Source: Pyrococcus sp. ST04 (GTDB lineage: Archaea; Methanobacteriota_B; Thermococci; Thermococcales; Thermococcaceae). Taken from it: a stretch of 64,000 nt of DNA. The translations under genes and the position numbers were made by a program. The DNA is taken from assembly GCF_000263735.1 (NCBI RefSeq), contig NC_017946.1, positions 1,343,348 to 1,407,347 of the forward strand, written 5' to 3'. The first letter of the stretch is position 1. Each line of letters begins with the position of its first letter. The notes under the pieces are model-generated. The model saw only the letters and a list, made by a program, of their open reading frames with translations. It did no database searches and had not been told where the DNA came from. Shown in pieces: positions 20,228 to 48,837 of this stretch.

Positions 20228-20307
20228 TCAAGAGTTTCCCGTCTTCAGCACTCTTCTATCTCTTTTTTTCTAAATTCTTAAAAATCCTAATGAGATAACT
20301 AACTCAG

Positions 20308-20357
20308 ATGATGAGCCTCCATCCAAGCTGAGTTGTGATGAATGCACATCAGGCTGA
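20308..20357 (+). ncRNA. C/D-box sRNA (2'-O-methylation guide)
   Basis: All four boxes are perfect and correctly spaced: C ATGATGA (20308-20314), a 13-nt guide, D' CTGA, a 3-nt spacer, C' GTGATGA (20335-20341), a 12-nt guide, then D CTGA (20354-20357). The core of 50 nt is the archaeal standard. The D' guide is complementary to CUUGGAUGGAGGC and the D guide to CCUGAUGUGCAU; I could not assign the targets. A T-rich tract and TTCTTAAAAATCC (about 20270-20282) give a TATA box 25 nt upstream. It is between osmC and the phosphopantoate ligase gene. Confidence 0.85.
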
Positions 20358-20398
20358 ACACTCAACAATATTGAAAGAATGTCCTCAAGGTGGTTTAT

Positions 20399-31714: not shown

Positions 31715-31759
31715 CTTTAACCACCTCCAAACTTTTGCCTAACCCTACTTTTGAGCTGG

Positions 31760-31776
31760 CTTTTTAAAATTTTCGC
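31760..31776 (-). promoter_or_regulatory. EF-1alpha promoter
   Basis: On the minus strand GCGAAAATTTTAAAAAG provides BRE and TATA about 50 nt before the ATG at 31714. A strong G+C-rich hairpin lies just upstream at 31782-31821. Confidence 0.55.
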
Positions 31777-31781
31777 ACATC

Positions 31782-31821
31782 AGCCCCCTCCGGCGGGAAA
31801 CCCGCCACTTGGGAGGGAGCT
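31782..31821. other. G+C-rich long hairpin upstream of the EF-1alpha promoter
   Basis: AGCCCCCTCC pairs with GGAGGGAGCT, and inside it GGCGGG-AAA-CCCGCC forms a second stem, with an asymmetric ACTTG bulge between. It stands out in an A+T-rich spacer. It could be the 3' part of an RNA, a terminator or a protein-binding RNA with a kink. Strand and function are undecided. Confidence 0.4.
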
Positions 31822-31913
31822 TCATGGGCTCGGATTGAAGTAAAAAATGGGGCTTAAAAACTTAACTCACAGATTTAAACAGAAAGTCGTAAACTGACTA
31901 CCTAGGAAGAGGC

Positions 31914-31965
31914 TCAGCGGTGACCACTATCATCATCACTCAGACAAGACCGATTTCTTCATCGC
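31914..31965 (-). ncRNA. C/D-box sRNA sharing a promoter region with lplA
   Basis: On the minus strand: C GCGATGA (31959-31965, one change from consensus), a 15-nt guide, D' CTGA (31940-31943), a 3-nt spacer, C' ATGATGA (31930-31936), a 12-nt guide, D CTGA (31914-31917). The D' guide is complementary to ACAAGACCGAUUUCU and the D guide to CGGUGACCACUA. Targets were not assigned. The TATA at 31989-31997 lies about 25 nt before it and equally about 25 nt before lplA on the other strand. Confidence 0.75.
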
Positions 31966-31985
31966 CCCTTCAATTCACTCGCAAA

Positions 31986-32018: not shown

Positions 32019-32768
32019 ATGAGATTCATACCCCTTATAGTCGCAAGACCGGAAGTTCAGATGGCTATAGACGAAGCCATAATGATAGCGAGGATCGAGG
32101 GGAAAGTTCCAGATACAGTAAGGCTTTATGTGTTTAAGCCAAGTTCAGTAACAATCGGTAGATTTCAGAGTGTTAGACACGATGTAGACTTGAATAAAGC
32201 AAAAGAGCTTGGAATTCCAGTAGTTAGGAGAATTACAGGAGGAGGAAGTGTCTTCCATGATGAGTTTGGGGAGATAACGTACTCAGTTGTTATAGGGGAA
32301 GACTATCATCCCGCACTTAAAAATATCCAGGAAAGCTATAGATTTTTAGCTGGCCCTCTAGTGGATGCCCTTAGAGATCTCAACCTGAATGCAGAGTTTT
32401 CTGGACTTAATGACATTGTTGTCAATGGTAAAAAGATAAGCGGATCTGCTCAAACTAGAAGGAAAGGGGTTATACTCCAACACGGAACTTTTATGTACTC
32501 AACGAGGCTGGAAATCTTGGCATCGGTTTTGAAAGTTTCCAAGGAAAAACTCAAGGATAAAGGAGTAAAAAGCATTTACGAAAGGGTAACTACTTTGGAA
32601 AAAGAAGGGATAAAGCTGAGCATGAACGAAGCCTATGAACTACTTAGAGCATCATTCTTTAGGGCATTTCCACTAGAGGAAGGAGAGCTAACGAAATATG
32701 AACTAGAGCTGGCAGAAAAGTTGATCGAAGAGAAATATGGAAATCCCAACTGGAATGAAATGAAGTAA
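32019..32768 (+). CDS. lplA: Lipoate--protein ligase A, catalytic subunit-like
   Basis: Attaches lipoate to acceptor proteins. The biotin/lipoyl ligase fold shows PVVRRITGGGSVFHDEFGEITYSVV (RRxxGGGxVxHD signature) and NDIVVNGKKISGSAQTRRKGVILQHGTF with the catalytic lysine. At 249 residues it has no C-terminal accessory domain, so it belongs to the bipartite archaeal type, in which a separate LplB is needed. No LplB gene is visible here. The ATG at 32019 is right for an almost leaderless mRNA, because TATA is 25 nt upstream. The longer frame from 31920 runs through the promoter and sRNA. Confidence 0.88.
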   Translation: MRFIPLIVARPEVQMAIDEAIMIARIEGKVPDTVRLYVFKPSSVTIGRFQSVRHDVDLNKAKELGIPVVRRITGGGSVFHDEFGEITYSVVIGEDYHPALKNIQESYRFLAGPLVDALRDLNLNAEFSGLNDIVVNGKKISGSAQTRRKGVILQHGTFMYSTRLEILASVLKVSKEKLKDKGVKSIYERVTTLEKEGIKLSMNEAYELLRASFFRAFPLEEGELTKYELELAEKLIEEKYGNPNWNEMK

Positions 32769-32783
32769 TTATGTCGTTACGTT

Positions 32784-32821
32784 ATTTTTTCTTTTTTCAA
32801 GCCTCGCCCTTTGGGGTGGGG
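32784..32821 (+). repeat. IS605-like right-end palindrome, copy 1 (degenerate)
   Basis: A T-rich run (TTTTTTCTTTTTTCAA) leads into CCTCGCCC-TTTG-GGGTGGGG. It directly follows lplA in sense orientation. The AGGAGGTCAG tail seen in other copies is missing. It could now serve as the lplA terminator. Confidence 0.6.
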
Positions 32822-32884
32822 ACGAATAAACGTTCAATGTGTCTCGGAAAATCGAAACCTTTTTAGAATCTTGCAACGTAATTT

Positions 32885-33139
32885 GGCCCCCGAAGCGACC
32901 ACCTAAAAAACAACCCCTCTCAAAGGGGTTTAACGTGTCCCTCCCGATAGGGGGATGACGCCATAAGGCGTCCTCGTTGGGGTGGCCTTTGGACGATAAC
33001 CCCGAACCCGCTTGGGCGGGTAGGGGTAACGGGCCTGAGACCGGGCCTGCGGGCTGAGCTGAAACCGGCGACGGGAGTAGGTGATGGGCCCGCGAACCGA
33101 TGAGTCCCCTAAAGGGTTGGGGTTATGACGCCCAAGAGG
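32885..33139 (+). ncRNA. Candidate structured G+C-rich RNA (possible omega-RNA relic)
   Basis: About 255 nt with strikingly high G+C, dense in hairpins: AACCCCT-CTCAA-AGGGGTT, GACGCC-ATAA-GGCGTC, ACCCGC-TTG-GGCGGGT, and GGGGT...ACCCC pairings. A BRE/TATA-like CGAAACCTTTTTAGA at 32853-32867 lies about 25 nt upstream. The 3' side runs straight into an IS605-type right-end palindrome, the position where TnpB guide RNAs lie. One plus frame is open from 32951 to about 33101 and could be the relic of a tnpB 3' end. I see no RNase P or SRP RNA motifs. Its identity is unproven. Confidence 0.5.
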
Positions 33140-33140
33140 A

Positions 33141-33172
33141 ACCCTCACCCTTCAGGGCGAAGAGGAGGTCAG
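33141..33172 (+). repeat. IS605-like right-end palindrome, copy 2
   Basis: CCCTCACCC-TTCA-GGGCGAAGAGG followed by AGGTCAG. On the minus strand it forms the last six codons and the stop of the CDF gene. It directly follows the G+C-rich RNA candidate. Confidence 0.65.
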
Positions 33173-34021
33173 ACCCTTTATATCCACGTGAACAAATGCA
33201 ACTTCAACCTCTGGCAACTCCTCAATTTTCTTCTTGACTTCTTCACTTATGTTATGTGCCTCCAGGAGAGTAATGGTAGGAGAAACCTCTATGTGCAACT
33301 CGACATGTAACTTACTTCCCACGTAGTGAGCTCTTAAATCATGAACTCCTAAAACTCCAGGAACGCTAAGAGCAGCATCCTCAATCTTCTTACACACCTC
33401 ATATGGAGGAGCCCTACCCGTTAGATAGTTCAGGTTCTCCAAGATTATCTCAGCAGCAACCTTTCCAATAAAAAGAGAAACAATTATCCCAGCCAGTGCA
33501 TCACCAAACCAAAATCCAATTTTCTCAAGGAAGAATCCAAACAAAACAGCCACAGTGCTGAGAACATCGCTTCTATGGTGGTATGCATCTGCTATTAGAA
33601 TCTTATTATCAACTTTCTTTCCAATGCGCAACGTGTACCTAGTCATTCCTTCCTTAATTATAATCGAGACTACTGCAACGCTTATCATAAGAGGGTTAAC
33701 ATCAATTCTAACTCCATGAAGAATTCTCTCAATTGAATCTCTCCCGATTTCATAAGCGACTAGAATTAATAACTGACCCATAAAGAATGCAAAGAGGGGT
33801 TCAAATCTAGAGTGGCCAAAAGGATGCGAACTGTCTGGAGGCTTCTTTGAAATTTTTATCCCTATTAGGCCGATTATACTTGTTAGTGTATCACTAAAAG
33901 AGTGAACACCGTCTGATATCAAAGCTATACTTGAATAGATTATTCCCACTATAATTTTAAGGAAAGCCAAGAACAGATTTCCCACTATGCTCACTATTAT
34001 CGGCTTGTATTCTTCCTCCAT
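33152..34021 (-). CDS. Cation diffusion facilitator (metal/H+ antiporter)
   Basis: Exports divalent metals (Zn, Mn, Fe or Co). Six membrane helices carry the two metal-site motifs SDGVHSFSDT (about residue 36) and DAYHHRSDVLST (about 145), and the C-terminal cytosolic domain has VHDLRAHYVGSKLHVELHIEV. The HHRSD form is common among zinc and iron exporters. Length 289 is normal. The final residues LTSSSP and the stop are encoded by an IS605-like right end, so the natural C-terminus has been replaced. A TATA (CCTTATAAAATT) lies upstream at about 34045. Its function should be intact, since only the tail is changed. Confidence 0.92.
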   Translation of the reverse strand: MEEEYKPIIVSIVGNLFLAFLKIIVGIIYSSIALISDGVHSFSDTLTSIIGLIGIKISKKPPDSSHPFGHSRFEPLFAFFMGQLLILVAYEIGRDSIERILHGVRIDVNPLMISVAVVSIIIKEGMTRYTLRIGKKVDNKILIADAYHHRSDVLSTVAVLFGFFLEKIGFWFGDALAGIIVSLFIGKVAAEIILENLNYLTGRAPPYEVCKKIEDAALSVPGVLGVHDLRAHYVGSKLHVELHIEVSPTITLLEAHNISEEVKKKIEELPEVEVAFVHVDIKGLTSSSP

Positions 34022-34138
34022 ATTATCACCTTAGCATATGCACAAAATTTTATAAGGCCCCAAATTCAGTTTTCCGGAGAACATTTATTAGATTTTCCAA
34101 TTTTGTTAGCCTAATCTAAAAAATTTAGAGAACAGCGG

Positions 34139-34190
34139 TCAGTCCGTCACTCCCTCATCACTTCTCAGCCTAGGCTGAACTCCTCATCCC
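34139..34190 (-). ncRNA. C/D-box sRNA
   Basis: On the minus strand: C GGGATGA (34184-34190, one change), a 15-nt guide, D' CTGA, a 3-nt spacer, C' GTGATGA, a 12-nt guide, D CTGA (34139-34142). GCGG before and CCGC after the boxes can pair as a terminal stem. The D guide is complementary to UCCGUCACUCCC. The target is not assigned. It lies 28 nt downstream of the next sRNA in the same direction. Confidence 0.75.
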
Positions 34191-34218
34191 GCACTCGTAT
34201 TCCTTGAGGGTCTAGAGC

Positions 34219-34268
34219 TCAGAGATCACCTACCATCATCACAACTCAGTTCGCCCATCACTCATCAT
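34219..34268 (-). ncRNA. C/D-box sRNA with 16S decoding-site complementarity
   Basis: All boxes are perfect on the minus strand: C ATGATGA (34262-34268), a 12-nt guide, D' CTGA, a 3-nt spacer, C' GTGATGA, a 13-nt guide, D CTGA (34219-34222). The D' guide GTGATGGGCG pairs with 16S rRNA CGCCCGUCAC (ten pairs, one G-U), and the box-plus-five rule points to E. coli C1402. The D guide has about nine pairs, one G-U, with GGAUCACCU near the 16S 3' end. These target assignments rest on universal 16S sequence I know, since no rRNA gene is in the window. Confidence 0.88.
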
Positions 34269-34335
34269 TGCCAAAAAGAGAAGTCAGTAAGAGGTTAATA
34301 AGGTTTGGGCAGGAAGCAAGAAAACGGGCAAAACT

Positions 34336-40519: not shown

Positions 40520-40566
40520 TCTGACCTCCTCCTCCGCCCTAAAGGGCGAGGCTTGAAAAAAGAAAA
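40520..40566 (-). repeat. IS605-like right-end palindrome, copy 3
   Basis: TCTGACCTCCTCCTCCGCCC-TAAA-GGGCGAGG then CTTGAAAAAAGAAAA. In minus orientation it follows the chitinase gene in sense and may end its transcript. The orientation is the same as copy 4 on the other side of the chitinase. Confidence 0.7.
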
Positions 40567-40613
40567 GTCAAAGAAGGAATGAGAGGATAATTTGGAAAAA
40601 GAAATTTAGAACA

Positions 40614-42489: not shown

Positions 42490-42535
42490 CTGACCTCCTC
42501 CTCGCCCTGAAGGGCGAGGCTTTCAAAAGAAAAAG
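42490..42535 (-). repeat. IS605-like right-end palindrome, copy 4
   Basis: CTGACCTCCTCCTCGCCC-TGAA-GGGCGAGG then CTTTCAAAAGAAAAA. It stands about 75 nt downstream (in minus sense) of the transposase-like remnant, which is the relation of a right end to tnpB. Confidence 0.75.
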
Positions 42536-42607
42536 CAAGGAGGTTGAGAGCTAAATTAATCACGACCGATAAAGGACAAGAAGAAGTAGCAAAAAAGAAA
42601 GATGGGG

Positions 42608-48655: not shown

Positions 48656-48700
48656 CTGACCTCCTCCCCGCCCTAAAGGACGAGGCTTTAAAAAGGAAAA
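48656..48700 (-). repeat. IS605-like right-end palindrome, copy 6
   Basis: CTGACCTCCTCCCCGCCC-TAAA-GGACGAGG then CTTTAAAAAGGAAAA. Inverted relative to copy 5. The 3' neighbour is the promoter of the flavodiiron gene. Confidence 0.7.
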
Positions 48701-48837
48701 TGTCAGGTAAAAGAAAGTTTTGAGAGGAAAATCAACCTTATCTCGATTTTCAAACCTAATCAGTTTTCATATCGAAATTACAAGGTGATAATGGAAAACT
48801 TTATATGACATGTGGCAAATCTAGTATGGTGGTTTCC

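Follow-up and report, generated by a model that had tools for sequence, protein, structure and literature searches.

A non-autonomous IS200/IS605-type element in Pyrococcus sp. ST04 carrying a TnpB guide-type RNA of a widespread RNA-only lineage

The guide (omega) RNAs of TnpB are related to the guides of CRISPR-Cas12. Stand-alone omegaRNAs have reportedly been found for IscB and, in Geobacillus, for TnpB; such RNA-only loci possibly supply a nuclease in trans. They differ from the RNA treated here in that they are bacterial and belong to other RNA families. Non-autonomous IS200/IS605 elements of the PATE-like kind have palindromic ends and no transposase gene, and are thought to be moved in trans; one such element in Halanaerobium retains the end of tnpB (PMC7290912, PMC3119063). 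In P. abyssi, the expressed tnpB-related RNAs sRkB and sRkC bind L7Ae through K-turns. They arise from solo loci with BRE/TATA sites, and the 3' end of sRkB lies inside the next gene; they were described as specific to P. abyssi, and their guide-RNA nature was not recognised (PMC3124441). In T. kodakarensis, the HgcC RNAs are expressed, including two that lie apart from transposases, and HgcC4 is a transcribed HgcC with no transposase gene (PMC4247193). Non-autonomous IS605 elements with a solo omegaRNA, the kind of locus described below, are already known from the PATE-like elements and solo omegaRNAs.

In the stretch of 64,000 nucleotides analysed here (the window), a first-pass annotation had proposed a G+C-rich RNA with dense hairpins at 32885-33172, with a BRE/TATA-like site upstream and an IS605-type right end, in the arrangement of a TnpB guide (omega) RNA without tnpB. 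All these assignments are borne out. The right end (...TTCAGGGCGAAGAGGAGGTCAG) stops exactly at 33172, and about 20 IS605-type right ends resembling it occur elsewhere in the 1,736,885-base genome; its palindrome contains one mismatch in the window copy. No tnpB was found at the 32781-33172 locus, and the RNA is homologous to tnpB-linked omegaRNAs. A left-end palindrome, missing from the annotation, is also present (Table 1), and the locus is therefore a whole element rather than a lone right end.

In five other genomes of the genus the lplA-CDF junction is empty, with the two housekeeping genes adjoining and no element between them. When the flanks in the window are rejoined without 32781-33172, they read ...GTCGTTAC followed directly by ACCCTTTATATCC, and the CDF protein ends in HVDIKGVTT*. 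The C-terminus is GVTS* or GVTT* in relatives, and GLTSSSP in the window genome with the element present. The empty sites and the restored C-terminus indicate that the insertion is lineage-specific and used TTAC. It adjoins this fixed short motif with no target duplication, and the empty site is clean. A conserved host locus is ruled out by the empty site in the other genomes of the genus.

The element has subterminal palindromes at both ends and no transposase gene, and relatives with the same ends encode TnpA and/or TnpB (group-B elements, e.g. L095 and L096 with Y1 TnpA). As judged from sequence, it is a protein-less (non-autonomous) IS200/IS605 element, agreeing with PATEs in its ends, its insertion motif and the existence of TnpA/TnpB-encoding relatives. 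The palindromic ends and the absence of a transposase gene are common to both. Unlike PATE-like elements, it contains a complete structured RNA preceded by a promoter of its own, and the 5' domain of this RNA was not seen in tnpB elements.

Table 1. Positions in the window of the element, its parts, its neighbours and the Rfam matches
Feature	Position	Strand	Basis
Complete non-autonomous IS200/IS605-type element, 392 bp, from left end to right end with promoter and RNA	32781..33172	+	Empty junction elsewhere; anatomy common to relatives
TTAC target motif (TAM), left boundary	32777..32780	+	Rejoined flanks; TTAC in 37/48 RNA-only copies
Left-end palindrome CCTCGCCC-TTTG-GGGTGGGG	32802..32821	+	Sequence; relatives carry AAGCCTCGCCCTTTAGGGCGGGG here
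BRE/TATA-like promoter GAAACCTTTTTAGAAT	32854..32869	+	Motif kept in 42 aligned copies
5' multi-hairpin domain, closed by long helix	32889..32991	+	Fold; covariation; R1 model match; not found in tnpB elements
Hairpins within 5' domain	~32912-32931, 32938-32955, 32957-32972	+	
OmegaRNA-like core with tnpB-frame trace and box C/D-like CUGA...GUGAUGG motif	32994..33098	+	Fold; covariation; translation; motif count
3' module and right end, terminating in GAGGAGGTCAG	33099..33172	+	Sequence; ~20 similar right ends in genome
HgcC (RF00062), sub-threshold, 30.8 bits (gathering score 50)	33029..33185	+	Rfam
sot0042 (RF02656), sub-threshold, 23.1 bits (gathering score 88)	32994-33163	+	Rfam; overlaps HgcC match
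Natural guide ACCCTTTATATCCACGTGAA, antisense to CDF gene end	33173..33192	+	Directly after GGTCAG
Lipoate-protein ligase (lplA), upstream neighbour; start codon assumed	32019..32768	+	
CDF-type cation efflux gene; last codons and stop supplied by right end of element	33152..34021	-	
SscA RNA and C/D RNAs, as a set	31737-31832, 31912-31966, 34137-34191, 34217-34272; 20304-20359	- (first four); + (last)	Rfam

On the + strand, 32885-33172 folds with an energy of -134.6 kcal/mol, unequalled in 200 shuffles (z -3.5), while the reverse strand folds less well (z -1.9). The 5' part folded alone gives z -4.1. G+C content reaches a maximum of 0.72 in the RNA region, against approximately 0.40 in the surroundings. 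From archaeal promoter spacing, the RNA is predicted to start at ~32885-32889. In its 5' domain, a helix of 10 pairs closes a multi-branched unit, of which the fourth hairpin seen in relatives is missing from the window copy. A remnant of the 3' reading frame of tnpB survives in the core (AGRGNGPETGPAG followed by a stop), where the TnpB of the same genome has AGRGNWPETRPEG.

RNAalifold gave a poor 5' part on the gappy alignment, and the helices were therefore set by hand from column pairs and then counted. In the 11-helix structure, pairing is kept in 93.8% of the cells of 42 aligned copies. Two-sided changes are seen at 26 pairs, in 130 cells as against 41 in shuffled and no more than 54 in slid controls (0/500 shuffles), values to be read with the helices having been picked on the tested alignment and kinship of the sequences inflating the shuffle control; the slid controls agree. 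Covariation is thus strong. Protein coding as the source of the conservation is ruled out, because the frame is broken and the covariation is strong.

A known stable RNA unrelated to IS605 is likewise ruled out. Good Rfam scores are obtained only for HgcC and sot0042, both of which are linked to TnpB. The Rfam thresholds are reached neither by the window RNA nor by ten further RNA-only copies, and that of HgcC is passed by two of nine tnpB loci. In genome G023, presumably that of T. kodakarensis, five HgcC matches agree in position with the RNAs described for this species. The match at 1474 kb is a member of the present family (L153) and agrees in position with HgcC4, on the same presumed identity of the genome. 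L153 is truncated at its 5' end.

The window RNA resembles the TnpB omegaRNA/reRNA, HgcC and sot0042 in its core helices, right end and guide position, and it is homologous to the tnpB-linked RNAs of the same archaea. It differs from them in that it lies outside a tnpB gene, scores below the Rfam thresholds and falls in a separate group; an extra 5' domain and a K-turn-like motif further set it apart from the tnpB omegaRNAs. With sRkB and sRkC it has in common the solo locus, the BRE/TATA site, the relation to tnpB and the K-turn, a likeness drawn from their description and not from sequence.

A model (R1) was built on the 5' domain alone. Among 94 Thermococcaceae genomes it finds 189 copies in 50 genomes and in five of six genera, and under strict filters it has no match in the remaining phylum sample. 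The window copy (65 bits) is the sole match in its own genome. DNA related to the element is present in 74 of the 94 genomes, in some through right ends only. The best relatives measure ~400 nt and have both ends; a tnpB is present at none of the 29 best loci, and the anatomy of the window element is repeated in about 50 relatives. A search for carriage on plasmids gave no match. In G011 (L031, L116, L118) and G075 (L021, L119), copies that are 98-99% identical are located at different sites with different flanks, which indicates that the family moved recently. In three RNA-only elements (L032, L045, L151) most of the 3' module ahead of the right end is missing, so that the core almost directly meets the right-end palindrome.

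A tree built on 98 cores separates every one of the 60 RNA-only cores from the 38 tnpB-linked omegaRNAs with a support of 1.0; since the core alignment is short, the branching order inside the groups is not trustworthy. The 5' domain is carried by none of the tnpB elements examined. The apparent 5' domain at L111 is due to an RNA-only element adjoining its tnpB. By these comparisons the RNA is a distinct and widespread lineage, homologous to tnpB-linked omegaRNAs, with an extra 5' domain. An RNA-only lineage with its own 5' domain looks undescribed in the searched literature, which omits most subscription journals.

The single group formed by the RNA-only cores disfavours their being deletion derivatives of present tnpB elements. 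A more general form of decay would have repeated internal deletions of ordinary tnpB elements leaving the ends and a piece of omegaRNA, with the RNA functionless. The tnpB-frame trace in the core, the losses in the window copy itself, and the solo right ends and fused mini-elements (see below) common in the window genome are in favour of such decay. It is nevertheless very improbable, considering that all 60 RNA-only cores fall in one group and have in common a 5' domain not seen in any tnpB element, that covariation is strong and the promoter conserved, and that the spread is recent. Of the three possibilities raised earlier (a relic, a domesticated guide RNA or a new ncRNA), a mere relic of a right end is too narrow for a complete element in a large and recently mobile family whose RNA is distinct. 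Nor is the RNA wholly new: expression of tnpB-related RNAs is known for T. kodakarensis in the case of HgcC (PMC4247193) and for P. abyssi in that of sRkB and sRkC (PMC3124441).

Among 64 RNA-only copies, 27 have the strict form of the box C/D-like, K-turn-like motif CUGA...GUGAUGR; none of 54 tnpB loci has it. This difference, the binding of L7Ae by the K-turns of the tnpB-related sRkB and sRkC of P. abyssi (PMC3124441), and the occurrence of RNA-only elements in some genomes without a close TnpB would suit a small RNA recruited by the host as an L7Ae-bound regulator, with TnpB irrelevant. Such a role appears unlikely, because the ends are those of a mobile element, and because the site is filled only in the window genome among those compared and the flanks vary between copies, which speaks against a conserved host target.

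The TnpB proteins of the sampled genomes fall into group A (~80% identical to the TnpB of the window genome), at TGAC, and group B (~70% identical), at TTAC, some with Y1 TnpA. The left flank is TGAC in 17 and TTAC in one of the group-A elements, and TTAC in eleven and TGAC in two of those in group B. The left end is readable in 48 RNA-only copies, of which 37 have TTAC, three TGAC and eight another motif, and the left ends are nearer to group B in 49 of 50 RNA-only copies. The copy numbers of TnpB and of RNA-only elements are correlated (rho 0.68, with genomes counted regardless of relatedness).

The most probable reading, at roughly 0.8, is that of a non-autonomous IS200/IS605 element whose omegaRNA-type RNA served a TnpB in trans. 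The ends of the element would be recognised by a TnpA encoded elsewhere, and its own promoter would yield an omegaRNA-type RNA of ~285 nt plus guide, transcription past the right end turning the adjacent host sequence into the guide. A TTAC-subgroup (group B) TnpB, likewise provided in trans, would associate with the RNA and cut those copies of the site that had lost the element, in which TTAC is followed by the guide sequence, and repair would then restore the element. In agreement with the earlier proposal that the natural guide is the flank after GGTCAG, that is, the CDF gene end, the guide-matching flank is preceded by TTAC in the empty site. With no more than 3 mismatches allowed in 18 nt, the guide has no further match in its own genome. 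Against use by TnpB in trans, the RNA-only core differs from those of tnpB-linked omegaRNAs, six genomes have RNA-only elements and no TnpB at E < 1e-20, and the window copy is short of one hairpin and has a mismatched right-end palindrome.

As to partners at present, a single close TnpB with intact domains (L016, G000:C1:1553494-1554801; group A) is encoded in the window genome, together with two distant TnpB-like frames; neither a Y1 transposase (TnpA) nor a TTAC-type (group-B) TnpB was found there. The frame of L016 is open over 436 aa and includes OrfB_IS605 and Cas12f1-like domains, but no left end is recognisable; L016 may therefore be a stranded or domesticated nuclease. That this TnpB still uses the RNA is suggested by its intact frame and by its own omegaRNA, which has the core and the 3' end in common with the window RNA. 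This remains rather doubtful, considering that the relatives of L016 sit at TGAC rather than TTAC and that the left end of its element is unrecognisable. Since the matching TnpB and TnpA seem to be missing from the genome, 'stranded guide RNA' fits better than the 'domesticated guide RNA' suggested at first; the window copy can probably no longer move, and its RNA probably lacks a proper partner, unless the group-A TnpB accepts it.

Within the reading of service to a TnpB in trans, a long-lived lineage of RNA-only parasites may tentatively be envisaged. Having lost all its protein genes early in Thermococcaceae, it would have acquired a 5' domain of its own as well as a K-turn that possibly recruits the host protein L7Ae. 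It would spread with borrowed TnpA, used for jumping, and persist with borrowed TnpB, used for guided retention. If so, transposable elements consisting of a guide RNA only would be a stable lineage with an RNA architecture of their own, beyond wreckage. They would allow an archaeal test of whether a single TnpB can serve many guides in trans, and some of the GC-rich 'HgcC-like' RNAs long known from hyperthermophiles would be tied to a mobile-element family.

Some minor observations may be added. The right flank of a group-B tnpB element in another genome (L100, G039) resembles the same CDF gene end, ~9 nt off, and may represent an independent insertion at nearly the same place. Other Rfam matches in the window are to the SscA RNA and the C/D RNAs sR44, sR60, sR1 and sR7. 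Mini-elements of ~50 bp, consisting of a left-end palindrome joined to a right end, are located on the - strand at 40521-40573, 42490-42540 and 48656-48705. About ten of them are present in the genome, mostly after TTGAC or a similar motif, and appear to have arisen by recombination between the two palindromes.
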